A stretch of 64,000 nt of DNA from Akkermansiaceae bacterium (lineage in GTDB: Bacteria; Verrucomicrobiota; Verrucomicrobiia; Verrucomicrobiales; Akkermansiaceae): NCBI GenBank assembly GCA_017798145.1, contig CP059069.1, positions 667,226 to 731,225 on the forward strand. The letters are read 5' to 3'. A model generated the notes under the pieces. It did no database searches. It was not told where the DNA came from and saw only the letters and a program-made list of their open reading frames with translations. Position 1 is the stretch's first letter. Each line of letters opens with the position of its first letter. The translations under genes were made by a program, and so were the position numbers. Of this stretch, positions 17,021-56,779 are shown in pieces.

Positions 17021-17100
17021 CCGTTAAGTAATGGCTTCTTGCTGGCAATTTTCTACCCTAAAAAACTCCTGCGGACAAGCCAAAGCCCATGCCATACCCC

Positions 17101-17844
17101 ATGAAACGCATCATCCCCACGCATCTTCTCCTCGCAGCCTCCCTATTGGCCGCCGAGACGAGGACATGGACGAACCCTGATGGGACAAAATCCTTTGAGG
17201 CGGAATTCGTCTCCAGGGGCAAGGATACGGTGAGCCTCTTGCGCAGCGATGGCAGGAAACTGGAGATCAAGCTGACCCTCCTTCACCACGAAGACCAGCG
17301 CTGGGTGAATGCCAACCACCCGGCGGATGGCGGCGACCCGGTGCCGGATCCGGACGCCGTCTTTGACACGCTGAAATTCGGCGACAGCCGGGACAGCGTC
17401 ACGGAAAAGCTCAAGGCGAGCAAGATGGTGGAGACGGCGGTGGCGGGGACTTTTTTCGGGCGTACCGGGCTGAACGGGATTTTCCGCACCAGGCACGAGA
17501 TCGGCGGGCTTTTCTGCTACCTATTTTTCGATTGGGACGAGGGCGGCGGGCTGAAGGAAATCACCCTCCAGACCGAGGGCAAGCCTGCCGCGCAATACGA
17601 CTCCACGCTGAAGCCATGCTGGGCGCAGCTTGTCGAGCTCATCGGCCCCATCCATGGCAAGGCCTTGCAGGACGCAGGTTTCCCGGCTTCGACAAAACTT
17701 GCGGAAGGGCAGATGCTCGCCAGCCACCTCTGGAACATCGAGAGCGGCGGCTCCGTGATGCTGGGCACTTCCCGCGTGGGCGATGAATACCAGGTTTCCG
17801 TCCGTTTCACCCGCGAAAAAATCCCCGTGAACCGGACACCGTGA
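17101..17844 (+). CDS. Secreted SHD1-like domain protein
   Basis: This is a 247-aa exported protein. The signal peptide is MKRIIPTHLLLAASLLAAE. I start at ATG 17101 because it begins this peptide; ATG 17089 would add four residues. Residues ~19-70 (RTWTNPDGTKSFEAEF, DTVSLLRSDGRKLEI, LTLLHHEDQRWVN) match the SLA1-homology 1-type repeat found in many Verrucomicrobia and Planctomycetes secreted proteins. The remainder (~75-247) has a repeated alpha/beta look (KFGDSRDSVTEKLKASKMV, GLFCYLFFDWDEGGGLKEI) of a kind seen in small lipoproteins that bind or sense other proteins. The function is unknown. It lies alone between two leftward genes. Confidence 0.7.
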   Translation: MKRIIPTHLLLAASLLAAETRTWTNPDGTKSFEAEFVSRGKDTVSLLRSDGRKLEIKLTLLHHEDQRWVNANHPADGGDPVPDPDAVFDTLKFGDSRDSVTEKLKASKMVETAVAGTFFGRTGLNGIFRTRHEIGGLFCYLFFDWDEGGGLKEITLQTEGKPAAQYDSTLKPCWAQLVELIGPIHGKALQDAGFPASTKLAEGQMLASHLWNIESGGSVMLGTSRVGDEYQVSVRFTREKIPVNRTP

Positions 17845-53583: not shown

Positions 53584-54519
53584 ATGAAAGCGTTGTTCAC
53601 AGCCTTTATGGCCATCTGCCTTGGCTCATGCCAAAAGGGCGGTGAGGACAGTGTCTGGTGGGGCAACGAAAAGACCATCATCGAGCTCCGGAACCAGCTG
53701 GAACTCGCCAGTTACCGGGCCGATAAAGCGCATCCCGGAGATGATGCGGAAGCCGCTGCCCGTGCTTCGGTAAATCCCGCTGCGCTGAGGGGCGAGATCG
53801 AGACCCTGGCGCATGGCAAGGCTCAGCTAACCAGGGAAATCGCGGCCATGAAAAGCGGTTGGGATGATTTCCGGCGATCCGTGCTCAATGATAGCAGAGT
53901 CCAGGCAAGCGGTAAGACCTTCGCCACATTCGTGGCTGCGGACGGCAGGGCTTTCAAGGAAGCCAAGGTGACCGAAATCGACGACAGCGGCGTATCCATC
54001 GCCCATGCCAGCGGTACGGCGCGACTTCGTTTCGGCGATCTCGATCCGGAGTGGCAGCTGTATTTCGGACTCGACGCGGAGCTGGCGAGGAAATCCCACG
54101 AGGCGGAGGCGGAGGGAAGGCTTGCCTACGATCGGCGCATCGACAGGCAGATGGCCGTGATCGCCGAAAAGGAAGCCGGTGCCAGAAAAGAACGGAAGAA
54201 GGAGGAGCAACGCCTTGCAGAAGCCAGGGCTATCGCATCCTACGCAAGGACTACCCCAGCGAGTTCGCTTTCCGCATCGATCGGAGGCCTCGGGGAAACA
54301 TCCAGGGTTTACGGAAGCCGCCGCTATGGGGGTTATTCCAGTTATTACAGGCAGCCCACCGTCCGTTACAGCTACGTTCCCTACTGCGGATCTCACCGCC
54401 AGGGGATTCCGATTTTCGGCTCGTCCGCTCCGGGTAACTACAGCGGCTGGGGATGCGCCCAGGCCGTACCAGTGCGCCCCCCTATCCAACAAGCCATCCA
54501 ATGGAAGCCCGCCCAGTAG
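53584..54519 (+). CDS. Paralogous envelope protein 1: lipoprotein with coiled coil and conserved beta-type module
   Basis: This is a 311-aa protein. The signal peptide ends with lipobox LGSC (Cys16). Residues ~30-90 form a coiled coil (TIIELRNQLELASYRADKAH, AALRGEIETLAHGKAQLTREI). A hinge, GWDDFRRSVLNDSRVQASG (92-110), and a module of about 55 residues follow: AADGRAFKEAKVTEIDDSGV, SIAHASGTARLRFGDLDPEW. A second coil (~165-215) leads to a low-complexity tail with Tyr, Ser and Gly (YGSRRYGGYSSYYRQ). The hinge and module recur in the genes at 54875 and 55835. I infer an outer-membrane or periplasmic lipoprotein. The function is not known. ATG 53584 starts the lipoprotein signal. It is the first of four tandem genes. 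Confidence 0.75.
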   Translation: MKALFTAFMAICLGSCQKGGEDSVWWGNEKTIIELRNQLELASYRADKAHPGDDAEAAARASVNPAALRGEIETLAHGKAQLTREIAAMKSGWDDFRRSVLNDSRVQASGKTFATFVAADGRAFKEAKVTEIDDSGVSIAHASGTARLRFGDLDPEWQLYFGLDAELARKSHEAEAEGRLAYDRRIDRQMAVIAEKEAGARKERKKEEQRLAEARAIASYARTTPASSLSASIGGLGETSRVYGSRRYGGYSSYYRQPTVRYSYVPYCGSHRQGIPIFGSSAPGNYSGWGCAQAVPVRPPIQQAIQWKPAQ

Positions 54520-54523
54520 AATC

Positions 54524-54844
54524 ATGAACCTTACCACTCAACTCGCCGCCCTCTCCGCTTGCCTGCTCTTCGTTTCCTGCGGGGAGGATCCGGAACTGGT
54601 CCGCAAGCACGGCGAACAGGAGGCGGAGATCGCCAAGCTGAAAGGGGAACTCGCCCTGGCCGAAGAACGCCTCAAGAACCTACCCGAGGACAAGACGTCC
54701 GAGCTGAAAGCGGCGGAGAGCGAGACGAGGGCGCTGCAGGCGGAACACACGAAACTTACCCAAGAGGTGGCGGATCTGGAAGCGGAACACAAGTCCCTCA
54801 GGGAGGAATACGAGGCGTATCAGCGCAAATACGCTCTCCGCTGA
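54524..54844 (+). CDS. Paralogous envelope protein 2: short coiled-coil lipoprotein without the module
   Basis: This is a 106-aa protein with a signal peptide ending in lipobox FVSC (Cys19). The rest is one long acidic coiled coil (about 27-100: EQEAEIAKLKGELALAEERL, TKLTQEVADLEAEHKSL). It ends exactly after the hinge motif LREEYEAYQRKYALR. The same hinge (LREEYGAYRESYRKK; LEREWEDYRNTYRSF) precedes the beta module in proteins 3 and 4, so this gene looks like the coil-plus-hinge half alone. It follows gene 1 by 4 bp and precedes gene 3 by 30 bp. An outer-membrane lipoprotein acting as a spacer or partner for the longer proteins is a guess. Confidence 0.72.
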   Translation: MNLTTQLAALSACLLFVSCGEDPELVRKHGEQEAEIAKLKGELALAEERLKNLPEDKTSELKAAESETRALQAEHTKLTQEVADLEAEHKSLREEYEAYQRKYALR

Positions 54845-54874
54845 CATCCGCACCAACATCCAATCAACAGTCAC

Positions 54875-55816
54875 ATGGCATTCAACGATCTTTTCACAAG
54901 CGCAAGGGGACCCGGGGTCATAGGCATGATCATGGCCCTCATCGTCCTCCTCGGCTTCGGCCTGCTCTTCATGTTCGCTTTCGAGGAAGGCTCGCAGGGC
55001 GGCGGACGATCCCTCGCATCTGTCATCCGCGAGAACACCAGCGTGATCGCGAACCTGAAGTCGGATATCGCCAGCGGTGCCTCAAAAATGGATCAGGCAC
55101 CAAGGCTCAAGGAGATTTCCTCGAAGCTTTCCTCATCGGTTTCGCTCAACAAATCGCTCTCCTTGCAGATTTCCGAAAAGAAAAATGAGATCGCCGGGCT
55201 GAAGGAGAACCTCGCGGTGCTGGAAAGGGAATGGGAGGATTACAGGAACACTTACCGCTCTTTCGTGCGGGAAAAGGCAGGCGGAACATCCATGCCGGAG
55301 CTCAAGACGAGCGACGGCACGGTCTATGTGGATGTGGATATCCGGAGCGTTTCCGCCATTGGCATGGACATCCGCCATCGCGACGGATTCAAGCGGATCG
55401 GCTTCGAGGAACTCCCGGCGGATCTCCAGGATTACTACCAGTTCGACAAGGATCAGATGCATGCCGAAGCGGAACGTGAGGCCAAGGTGCGCCTCAAGCA
55501 TGACAAGGCGGTGGCAGCAGCCGGCAGGGTTGCCGATGAGCGGAAGGCCGAGGAGATGGCCAAAAAAGCCCAGGAAAACCGGGAAAAGACATTGCTGGCC
55601 ATCGCGGCGAAGGAAAGCCAGGCAAAGGCCATCGAGGACGAGATAAGCCAGATCGAGCGGGATATCGTGGCCGCCGAGGCTGCGGCATCTGCTGCGAGGG
55701 CGGCAGGGAAAATGCACCTCAACAAATCCGGCAGCCTGCGCGGCACATTGAATTCGAAGCGCAACGCCCTCTCTCAGCTTCGGGCCGAGATCCTGCGCCT
55801 GCAATCCTCCATCTAA
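54875..55816 (+). CDS. Paralogous envelope protein 3: membrane-anchored coiled coil and conserved module
   Basis: This is a 313-aa protein with one N-terminal membrane helix (~14-36, GVIGMIMALIVLLGFGLLFMF), then a coiled coil (~50-117) and the hinge REWEDYRNTYRSFVREKAGG (118-137). The module covers about 140-192: MPELKTSDGTVYVDVDIRSV, GMDIRHRDGFKRIGFEELP, DLQDYYQFDKD. A second long coiled coil runs to the end (~192-313). It is oriented with the bulk in the periplasm if the helix is a signal anchor. It shares its architecture with the protein at 55835; sequence identity is low but the order of features is the same. No family name is known to me. Confidence 0.73.
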   Translation: MAFNDLFTSARGPGVIGMIMALIVLLGFGLLFMFAFEEGSQGGGRSLASVIRENTSVIANLKSDIASGASKMDQAPRLKEISSKLSSSVSLNKSLSLQISEKKNEIAGLKENLAVLEREWEDYRNTYRSFVREKAGGTSMPELKTSDGTVYVDVDIRSVSAIGMDIRHRDGFKRIGFEELPADLQDYYQFDKDQMHAEAEREAKVRLKHDKAVAAAGRVADERKAEEMAKKAQENREKTLLAIAAKESQAKAIEDEISQIERDIVAAEAAASAARAAGKMHLNKSGSLRGTLNSKRNALSQLRAEILRLQSSI

Positions 55817-55834
55817 CAGCCATTTCCAGCCGGA

Positions 55835-56779
55835 ATGAACTCCGACAACCACAGCGGAATCATCTGGTCGCTTGCCTGCCTGATCATCCTTACTCTCGGC
55901 GCGGTTTTACTCGCAACACTCGTTGACCGGAAGCACGGAGCTTCGAAGTTGCGGAGCAGCTTGCTCGGGCGGATCGCGGACGGTGAGCACAACCTCGGGA
56001 ACCTGCGCGACGAGTTGGAATCCCTGAACGCAAGGTATGACGCAGCCCAGGATCTCGCAAAGCGGAGCGCTGCGGGTGCCAGCTCCAAGGGCAAGCTCGC
56101 CTCGGAAATGCGAAGTTCTGTGGAGTTGCTGCGGGCAAGGTGCGAGGAATTACAGGCATCCATCCCGAAGCTCAGGGAGGAATACGGGGCTTACCGCGAG
56201 AGCTACAGAAAAAAGGCCTGGCTGGAGGCCTCAGGCGAGAGAATCGGCAATCTTTTGCTGAAATCGGGGCGTAGCTTCGAGGACGTGACCATCAGCCGGG
56301 TGACTCCCATCGGAATTGAGATAAGCCACGCCAACGGCATCGCCAGGATCGATTCGCAGGATCTCGGCGGTGAGTTCGCCGAGCGCTTCCAATGGGACGA
56401 GAAGGAACGCGCCTTGGCGCTCCAGAAGGAGCTAGCCAACAGGGAACGGATCACCCGCGTCGCACCGGCCGAGCCGAGCCCGCCCGTGGATGCGCCCGTG
56501 GAAATTTCCGGGGAGGAGCTGGAAAAAATCCGCAGCCAGGTGAGGGCGCTCCAAGCCAAGGCCATGACACTCAAGGGATCGATAGGGACGGCGGAAAGGG
56601 AGAGCCGCTATGCCAGCAACCGCTCGGTTCCAGGCTCCCTGCGGACATGGGCCGAACAGGCGATGATACTAAAGTCGGATCTGGCGCGCACCGAGGCATT
56701 GCTCGCCCTTGCCAAGGACAGGCTGCGGGCGGCAAACCCCAGCGATCCCCTACTGCTGTGGACGCCCGCCATGCGCTAA
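55835..56779 (+). CDS. Paralogous envelope protein 4: membrane-anchored coiled coil and conserved module
   Basis: This is a 314-aa protein. A membrane helix (~9-30, IIWSLACLIILTLGAVLLATL) is followed by a coiled coil (~38-115), then the hinge LREEYGAYRESYRKKAWLEA (113-132). The module spans ~134-195: GERIGNLLLKSGRSFEDVTI, TPIGIEISHANGIARIDSQD, GEFAERFQWDEKE. A second helical region (~195-314) contains a Pro-rich break (APAEPSPPVDAPVEIS). Compared with protein 3, the pattern G-R/T-x-F/Y-x-D-V-x-I is kept at the module start and H-x-x-G near its middle. It starts 18 bp after gene 3 and converges on the PqiC-like lipoprotein gene with a 15-bp gap. Confidence 0.73.
   Translation: MNSDNHSGIIWSLACLIILTLGAVLLATLVDRKHGASKLRSSLLGRIADGEHNLGNLRDELESLNARYDAAQDLAKRSAAGASSKGKLASEMRSSVELLRARCEELQASIPKLREEYGAYRESYRKKAWLEASGERIGNLLLKSGRSFEDVTISRVTPIGIEISHANGIARIDSQDLGGEFAERFQWDEKERALALQKELANRERITRVAPAEPSPPVDAPVEISGEELEKIRSQVRALQAKAMTLKGSIGTAERESRYASNRSVPGSLRTWAEQAMILKSDLARTEALLALAKDRLRAANPSDPLLLWTPAMR

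Follow-up and report, generated by a model that had tools for sequence, protein, structure and literature searches.

We analyzed a 64,000-nucleotide stretch of DNA (the window) from an Akkermansiaceae bacterium (assembly GCA_017798145.1, contig CP059069.1), which corresponds to bases 667226-731225 of a genome assembled in one contig and 4,389,840 bases long. Four adjacent genes on the + strand, at positions 53584-56779 of the window, were named P1, P2, P3 and P4 in 5' to 3' order. An initial annotation, made from the letters of the DNA, had described them as closely spaced rightward genes for two lipoproteins and two membrane-anchored proteins that arose by duplication, and had proposed that they act as spacers or tethers across the envelope. 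The open reading frames agreed with this layout, the gaps between P1 and P2, P2 and P3, and P3 and P4 being 4, 30 and 18 bp, within the announced 4-30 bp. The anchors were as described: the signal peptides of P1 and P2, read from the sequence, end in the lipobox-like motifs LGSC and FVSC, respectively, and P3 and P4 each carry a single N-terminal hydrophobic membrane helix.

P1 (53584-54519) encodes a predicted lipoprotein of 311 residues with an N-terminal helical region, a module (53893-54087), a charged Ala-rich helix and a Tyr/Gly-rich tail. The product of P2 (54524-54844), also a predicted lipoprotein, has only 106 residues; it consists of a coil that ends in a stretch which we call the neck (EEYEAYQRKYALR), and a conserved motif follows its lipobox cysteine (54578-54658). 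P3 (54875-55816, 313 residues) begins with a short tail and a membrane helix (residues 13-36, 54911-54982), continues with a single helix (residues 47-135, 55013-55279) that comprises coil 1 and a Tyr/Arg neck, and ends with a module of 65 residues as aligned (55265-55459) and second helices. P4 (55835-56779, 314 residues) shows a similar succession of membrane helix (residues 8-31, 55856-55927), coil, neck, module (56216-56410) and second helix; an acidic N-terminal tail and a basic C-terminal flank surround its membrane helix. Downstream of its module lies the motif SVPGSLRTW (56624-56650), which reads SVPGSLETW in most relatives. A scan for promoters and terminators returned 0 promoter-like and 3 terminator-like sites, which is no excess over shuffled sequences.

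A module shared by P1, P3 and P4

The initial annotation had proposed a module of about 55 residues common to three of the proteins. The modules of P1, P3 and P4 do align and are homologous. Local alignment gave scores of 74, 91 and 87, where shuffled sequences averaged 22-24, and none of 5000 shuffles reached the observed score in any of the three comparisons. A short BLAST with the modules alone aligned P1 with P4 (E 9e-7) and P3 with P4 (E 4e-9) and left P1 and P3 unaligned; with whole proteins, E values among P1, P3 and P4 ranged from 1.2e-10 to 1.5e-12. The proposed motifs were found in part: H-x-x-G is present in all three modules, whereas D-V-x-I is missing from P1, which has EAKV instead. 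In the complete genome, a module profile recovered the three genes from which it had been built and no other match below E 0.46.

The statement that the proteins belong to no named family was borne out by the searches. No Pfam or NCBIfam model reached its cut-off in P1-P4, coil matches of P2, P3 and P4 all remaining below it. Among 42 module sequences Pfam gave no consistent match, the two commonest models each being listed for 3 of the 42 at E values of at least 0.007, and the Sm, LSm and Hfq models were listed for none at E<=1. A sequence search of the PDB with the module returned nothing below E 0.4, with no Sm, LSm or Hfq protein among 24 matches at E<=10. The only matches in PHROGs and PADLOC were of coil type, for P2 and in one case for P4, and we took them as noise. 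No relative of P4 was found in viral_contigs at a tblastn E<=1e-3. Searches of an open-access library showed no description of the module or of the cassette.

An AlphaFold2 model of the P4 module, built from 32 module sequences, comprises four strands, one short helical turn and a longer stretch of helix (pLDDT 85.6). Foldseek gave 0 matches at E<=0.001 in the PDB and none in viral models at the same threshold. The best PDB matches of the module were Sm/Hfq-like barrels, including Methanocaldococcus jannaschii Hfq, 4x9d and 5dy9 (E 0.043, TM 0.63/0.69), followed at lower rank by the SHD1 structure 2hbp (E 0.38) and Escherichia coli YgdR, 2jn0 (E 0.58, TM 0.51/0.62). VIA gave Z 6.6 for Hfq (rmsd 1.9 over 51 residues) and Z 5.2 for SHD1 (rmsd 2.5 over 54), values that may reflect a common arrangement and that do not exclude a family missing from the matches. 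These comparisons predict that the module is a small Sm/SH3-like barrel, in the sense of a resemblance of fold and with no claim of descent. The module differs from Sm/LSm/Hfq barrels, which usually have five strands, by its four-stranded model, by the lack of any sequence match, and by its carriers, which are exported or membrane proteins and not RNA-binding rings. The match to SHD1 (PF03983) extends over the C-terminal helix and hhalign placed module and SHD1 in register, if weakly (probability 6.2%, P 0.006), yet no module reaches the SHD1 model: it was listed for 0 of the 42 modules at E<=1 and for none of P1-P4. YgdR, which we take to be a DUF903 protein (PF06004), is likewise a small barrel on a lipoprotein, although one without a coil. 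DUF903 had 0 matches in the genome, an E. coli control being positive, and none in P1-P4 or the 42 modules. The modules thus did not each match a different known fold, a comparison made with one folded module model.

SHD1 domains do occur in this genome. Four lie above the Pfam cut-off, including one (17152-17310, 26.6 bits) in a secreted protein encoded at 17062-17841 on the + strand of the window. In another genome (G395), the C-terminal part of a P3-like protein (L137:3526-4404, - strand) looks SHD1-like by eye, Pfam giving nothing there at E<=0.001.

At E<=1e-5 the module was present in 83 of 240 sampled Verrucomicrobiota genomes and in 45 of 129 genera. Its carriers in the phylum also include short secreted proteins whose tails are rich in Tyr and Gly, as well as single-span coil proteins. 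Three genomes of the same genus that have no cassette (G310, G021 and G032; loci L104, L105 and L106) encode a P1-like secreted module protein with such a tail and no clear coil. At L110 (G085) and L111 (G153), lone single-span proteins combine a long N-terminal tail, a coil, a neck and a module outside any cassette. In genome G289, a fusion protein (L153:4035-5711, - strand) joins a lipoprotein with coil, neck and module to a peptidase domain of the trypsin-like kind (Trypsin_2, E 2.6e-9).

The coils, the neck and the conserved parts of P2, P3 and P4

All four proteins had been said to contain a coiled coil. This was the case for P2, for coil 1 of P3 and for coil 1 of P4, in which a heptad-like periodicity with a best period of 3.46-3.52 was reached by 0 of 2000 shuffles each. 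The periodicity was not significant in P1 (274 of 2000 shuffles), nor was any detected in the second helices of P3 (669 of 2000) and P4 (399 of 2000). An AlphaFold2 model of P3, built from 13 sequences (pLDDT 85.1), shows the membrane helix at residues 13-36, the single helix at 47-135, the module and two further helices; with a pTM of 0.41, the relative placement of these parts is not reliable. In this model the Tyr/Arg stretch, first described as a hinge in all four proteins, is the end of the helix 47-135 and not a flexible joint. P1 has no Tyr-type neck.

The observation that P2 stops exactly at the neck proved to be a conserved property, Y99, K102 and Y103 being nearly invariant in 20 P2 sequences. 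A P2 profile matched the P3 coil including its neck (probability 94.5, E 8e-8). By this profile comparison, the coil and neck of P2 is homologous to the coil and neck of P3. The helices measure 12.6 nm for the 84 residues of P2 and 13.2 nm for the 88 residues of P3.

Conservation is distributed unevenly along these proteins. In a comparison that omitted 19 named loci and the P4 proteins of 250 residues or fewer, the mean pairwise identity among 36 P3 sequences was 59% for the N-terminal tail, 54% for the membrane helix, 39% for the neck, 35% for the module and 17-18% for the coils. Conservation in P3 is thus highest in the tail and membrane helix and lowest in the coils. In P4, the most conserved segment is SVPGSLETW with its flank (58% in 21 long P4 proteins), and in P2 the stretch after the lipid-bearing cysteine shows 44% identity among 37 proteins. 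The divergence of the P3 coils next to a conserved tail and membrane helix is unlike what a plain spacer would be expected to show, and suggests that the protein takes part in a specific complex. This is the main reason for which we prefer a specific complex to a passive spacer, since a mere rod should have no need of a membrane helix conserved in this way.

We examined the charges that flank the membrane helices. Lysine plus arginine residues are fewer before than after the P4 helix in 31 of 32 rows, and net charge goes the same way in 28 of the 32. For P3, the net charge ahead of the helix exceeds that behind it in 37 of 42 rows; the 42 include two (L055, L109) that are not true P3 proteins. 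The charge analysis left out 8 rows in which no membrane helix was clear. Counting lysine and arginine alone, P3 shows no bias (11 rows up, 16 equal and 15 down of 42). The P4 bias is weak or reversed in genus g144 (L135, L136), whose P4 carries a Tyr/Ser-rich stretch resembling the P1 tail. From the sequence, the flanks predict a cytoplasmic C-terminus for P4, opposite in orientation to P3.

Gene order in related genomes

Within the genus, the module was matched in 27 of 61 sampled genomes and P2 in 21, all of them among the 27; neither was found in 34. The six genomes with the module and without P2 are G015 and G022, in both of which the match is at a contig end, and G021, G032, G310 and G314. 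Across the family, P2 was detected in 54 of 211 genomes and in 8 of 14 genera.

The order P1-P2-P3-P4 was found at 23 loci, 18 in the same genus, 3 in g19 and 2 in g150; two of these loci are cut by contig ends and two have a broken P3. Other loci carry P2-P3-P4 or P2-P3 sets. P1 and P2 overlap by 4 bp in 8 cases. Among 45 P2 genes at 42 loci of seven genera, a script placed a module gene within 150 bp downstream of P2 in 40. Correction of the script's choice of start added L103 and L137. At L046 the P3 gene is broken into two frames, at L142 the contig stops beyond what looks like the start of P3, and only L143 truly departs from the pattern, its module gene lying upstream of P2. L153 was left out of the count because the P2 profile matched there within a module-bearing protein. 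Near-copies are included in these numbers, among them the species with L044, L047 and L051, and the loci of the genus had mostly been fetched via P4 matches, so that adjacency there is not an independent sample. In a fair sample of 20 P2 genes fetched on P2 matches alone, 17 were followed by a module gene according to the script, to which L137 is added, L142 being the cut locus and L143 the exception. Co-conservation of the cassette genes in relatives is thus borne out, P2 being nearly always followed by a module gene. The four-gene set as such fared less well: its P2-P3 core is kept, and neither P1 nor P4 is a fixed member.

Extra copies of parts of the cassette were also observed. Genome G234 has two tandem P2-P3 pairs at a second locus, and at L103 (G303) and L151 (G378) the complete P1-P2-P3-P4 set is part of a six-gene cluster, immediately preceded by one more P2-like gene and by a short gene resembling P4. 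Together with the adjacency of P2 and a module gene, these extra pairs indicate that the elementary unit is a headless lipoprotein and a head-bearing single-span protein.

The origin by duplication proposed for the cassette is supported by the homology of modules and coils and by a quick tree built from 103 rows that cover neck and module. On this tree, 8 changes were required for the labels P1, P3 and P4, against 47.1 when shuffled, and 0 of 200 shuffles were as low; the test is partly circular, the labels having been assigned by profile scores, which match the gene order at most loci. L047, L051 and L053 (for length, or as near-copies or outliers), as well as L055, L109 and L153, were omitted, and just 9 of 100 inner branches had strong support. 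The small number of label changes suggests that the P1, P3 and P4 lineages are old and were kept apart across genera.

A candidate envelope complex and its alternatives

The cassette is a co-conserved and apparently undescribed set of envelope genes in the family of Akkermansia, and the domain that underlies it has no Pfam or NCBIfam model. In the reading that we favour, and to which we give an even chance of being correct, it encodes one lineage-specific verrucomicrobial envelope complex, as yet unnamed, with P2 and P3 as core pair. The core would consist of P2, a short coiled-coil lipoprotein, and of P3, an inner-membrane protein whose homologous coil ends in the Sm/SH3-like barrel. Their coils probably associate in register as far as the Tyr/Arg neck that both possess, so that P2 would anchor and cap the rod. 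Barrel heads would be contributed by P3 and in most loci also by P4 and P1, and may act as binding or oligomerising heads, while the conserved membrane helix of P3 could attach the complex to itself or to some partner in the membrane. The reading is built on homology, gene order, co-occurrence and the predicted helix and fold; pairing, location and task are inferred from these. If P2 and P3 do pair, they would be a natural example of coil duplication that gave one partner with a head and one without.

Several observations weigh against this reading. P1 is absent from several loci, and so is P4; P1 lacks the coil periodicity of the other three proteins. Matches between coil profiles can be partly compositional, and the coil sequences are poorly conserved. 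The adjacency observed within the genus is affected by the way in which its loci were fetched, and the orientation predicted for P4 sets it apart from P3.

A trans-envelope tether is an unlikely alternative. It would fix the spacing of the two membranes through contact, within the periplasm, between P3 anchored in the inner one and P2 anchored in the outer one. Laid end to end, the P2 and P3 helices would roughly span the Gram-negative periplasm. At the position after the P2 lipid cysteine, the alignment shows G, E, S, K, N and occasionally some other residue that is not aspartate, which by the E. coli +2 rule would send P2 to the outer membrane, although this rule is not general (PMC10260701). 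A lipoprotein gene and a single-span protein gene stand side by side, so that the layout would resemble that of a two-component spanin and the purpose that of TolA-Pal or Lpp. Two-component spanins (Rz/Rz1) are described as a single-span coil protein and a lipoprotein encoded by adjacent genes (PMC6139136). P2 and P3 have this layout of adjacent predicted lipoprotein and single-span coil protein, but they are bacterial chromosomal genes with homologous coils and a barrel head, and no spanin family was among the PHROGs matches at E<=0.01. The homology of the two coils through the neck is more in keeping with a parallel pair anchored in one membrane than with a bridge, whether end-to-end or antiparallel, and a tether is hardly expected to keep its membrane helix most constant and its coils least. 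In addition, the charge flanks of P4, opposite to those of P3, leave a simple inner-to-outer-membrane tether unproven.

A covalent tether of the Lpp type was rejected. An Lpp-like terminal lysine is not conserved in P2, the last residue being lysine in 8 of 20 proteins, arginine in 7 and another residue in 5, and P2 of the window ends in arginine. Lpp and the Methylacidiphilum protein WP_009060351 are short lipoproteins known or proposed to hold the envelope, with which P2 may be compared; the latter, a proposed tether lipoprotein (PMC10260701), was the one verrucomicrobial protein of this kind that came up in the literature searches. It was found in four genomes of one genus. Its conserved C-terminal domain was a candidate for our module, but the three proteins checked do not carry the module, the best score being -2.3 bits. 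The P2 profile gave the same three proteins weak scores of 5-6 bits, the matched region being the signal peptide and the first residues beyond it. A guess that the Methylacidiphilum domain is a YMGG glycine zipper (PF13441) was dropped, a search of the genome having no bearing on it. The same study reports no Lpp homologue in the methanotrophs examined (PMC10260701), and the cassette offers a handle on envelope organisation in this phylum.

The charge bias of P4, and the opposite net charge of P3, raise a second alternative, which we consider unlikely: the barrel would be periplasmic on P3, together with P1 and P2, and cytoplasmic on P4, the complex straddling the inner membrane. The acidic tail and basic flank of P4 resemble those of the Pf3 coat protein, a type that inserts with its N-terminus out. 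A fuller version of this arrangement, in our view about as unlikely, is a scaffold with an Sm-like head on both faces of the membrane and P2 as obligatory coil partner of the periplasmic P3. The absence of bias in P3 when lysine and arginine are counted, the two false P3 rows, the rows dropped from the charge analysis and the weak or reversed bias of g144 all speak against opposite orientations. A P1-like Tyr/Ser-rich stretch would moreover be odd in the cytoplasm, and homologues seldom flip.

Finally, we consider it very unlikely that the cassette helps to assemble proteins of the surface or outer membrane, in the way that SadB serves the adhesin SadA. In favour are the succession of lipid anchor, coil and beta domain, which SadB shares, and the protease fusion of G289, which would suit a quality-control factor. 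Against it, no adhesin, barrel or secretion gene recurs nearby, and the SadB domain is an Ig-like sandwich and not a small barrel of the kind predicted here. SadB is an inner-membrane lipoprotein that forms a homotrimer with a coiled coil and an Ig-like beta domain, and no module-less partner gene is described for it in the sections consulted (PMC3953254).

Concerning the surroundings of the cassette, the initial annotation had noted that the four genes converge on an Mla-type lipid transport operon. This holds in the window, where ABC_trans_aux, MlaD, ABC ATPase and MlaE genes are found in a convergent operon 15 bp 3' of P4. Conservation of the cassette beside mla genes, which the annotation had proposed to check, was not observed: among 36 loci with at least 3 kb of downstream sequence, only 2 have such genes, namely the window and G010, in which they lie 1.7 kb off, behind an aminopeptidase P gene. 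Linkage to Mla was therefore rejected as a general rule. Neither the Mla-type genes nor aminopeptidase P explains the cassette. The latter was the recurrent neighbour among the genes tested: a gene for aminopeptidase P (AMP_N plus M24) was detected 39-122 bp downstream, on the same strand, in 8 of the 36 loci (L039, L040, L041, L043, L049, L100, L102 and L154).

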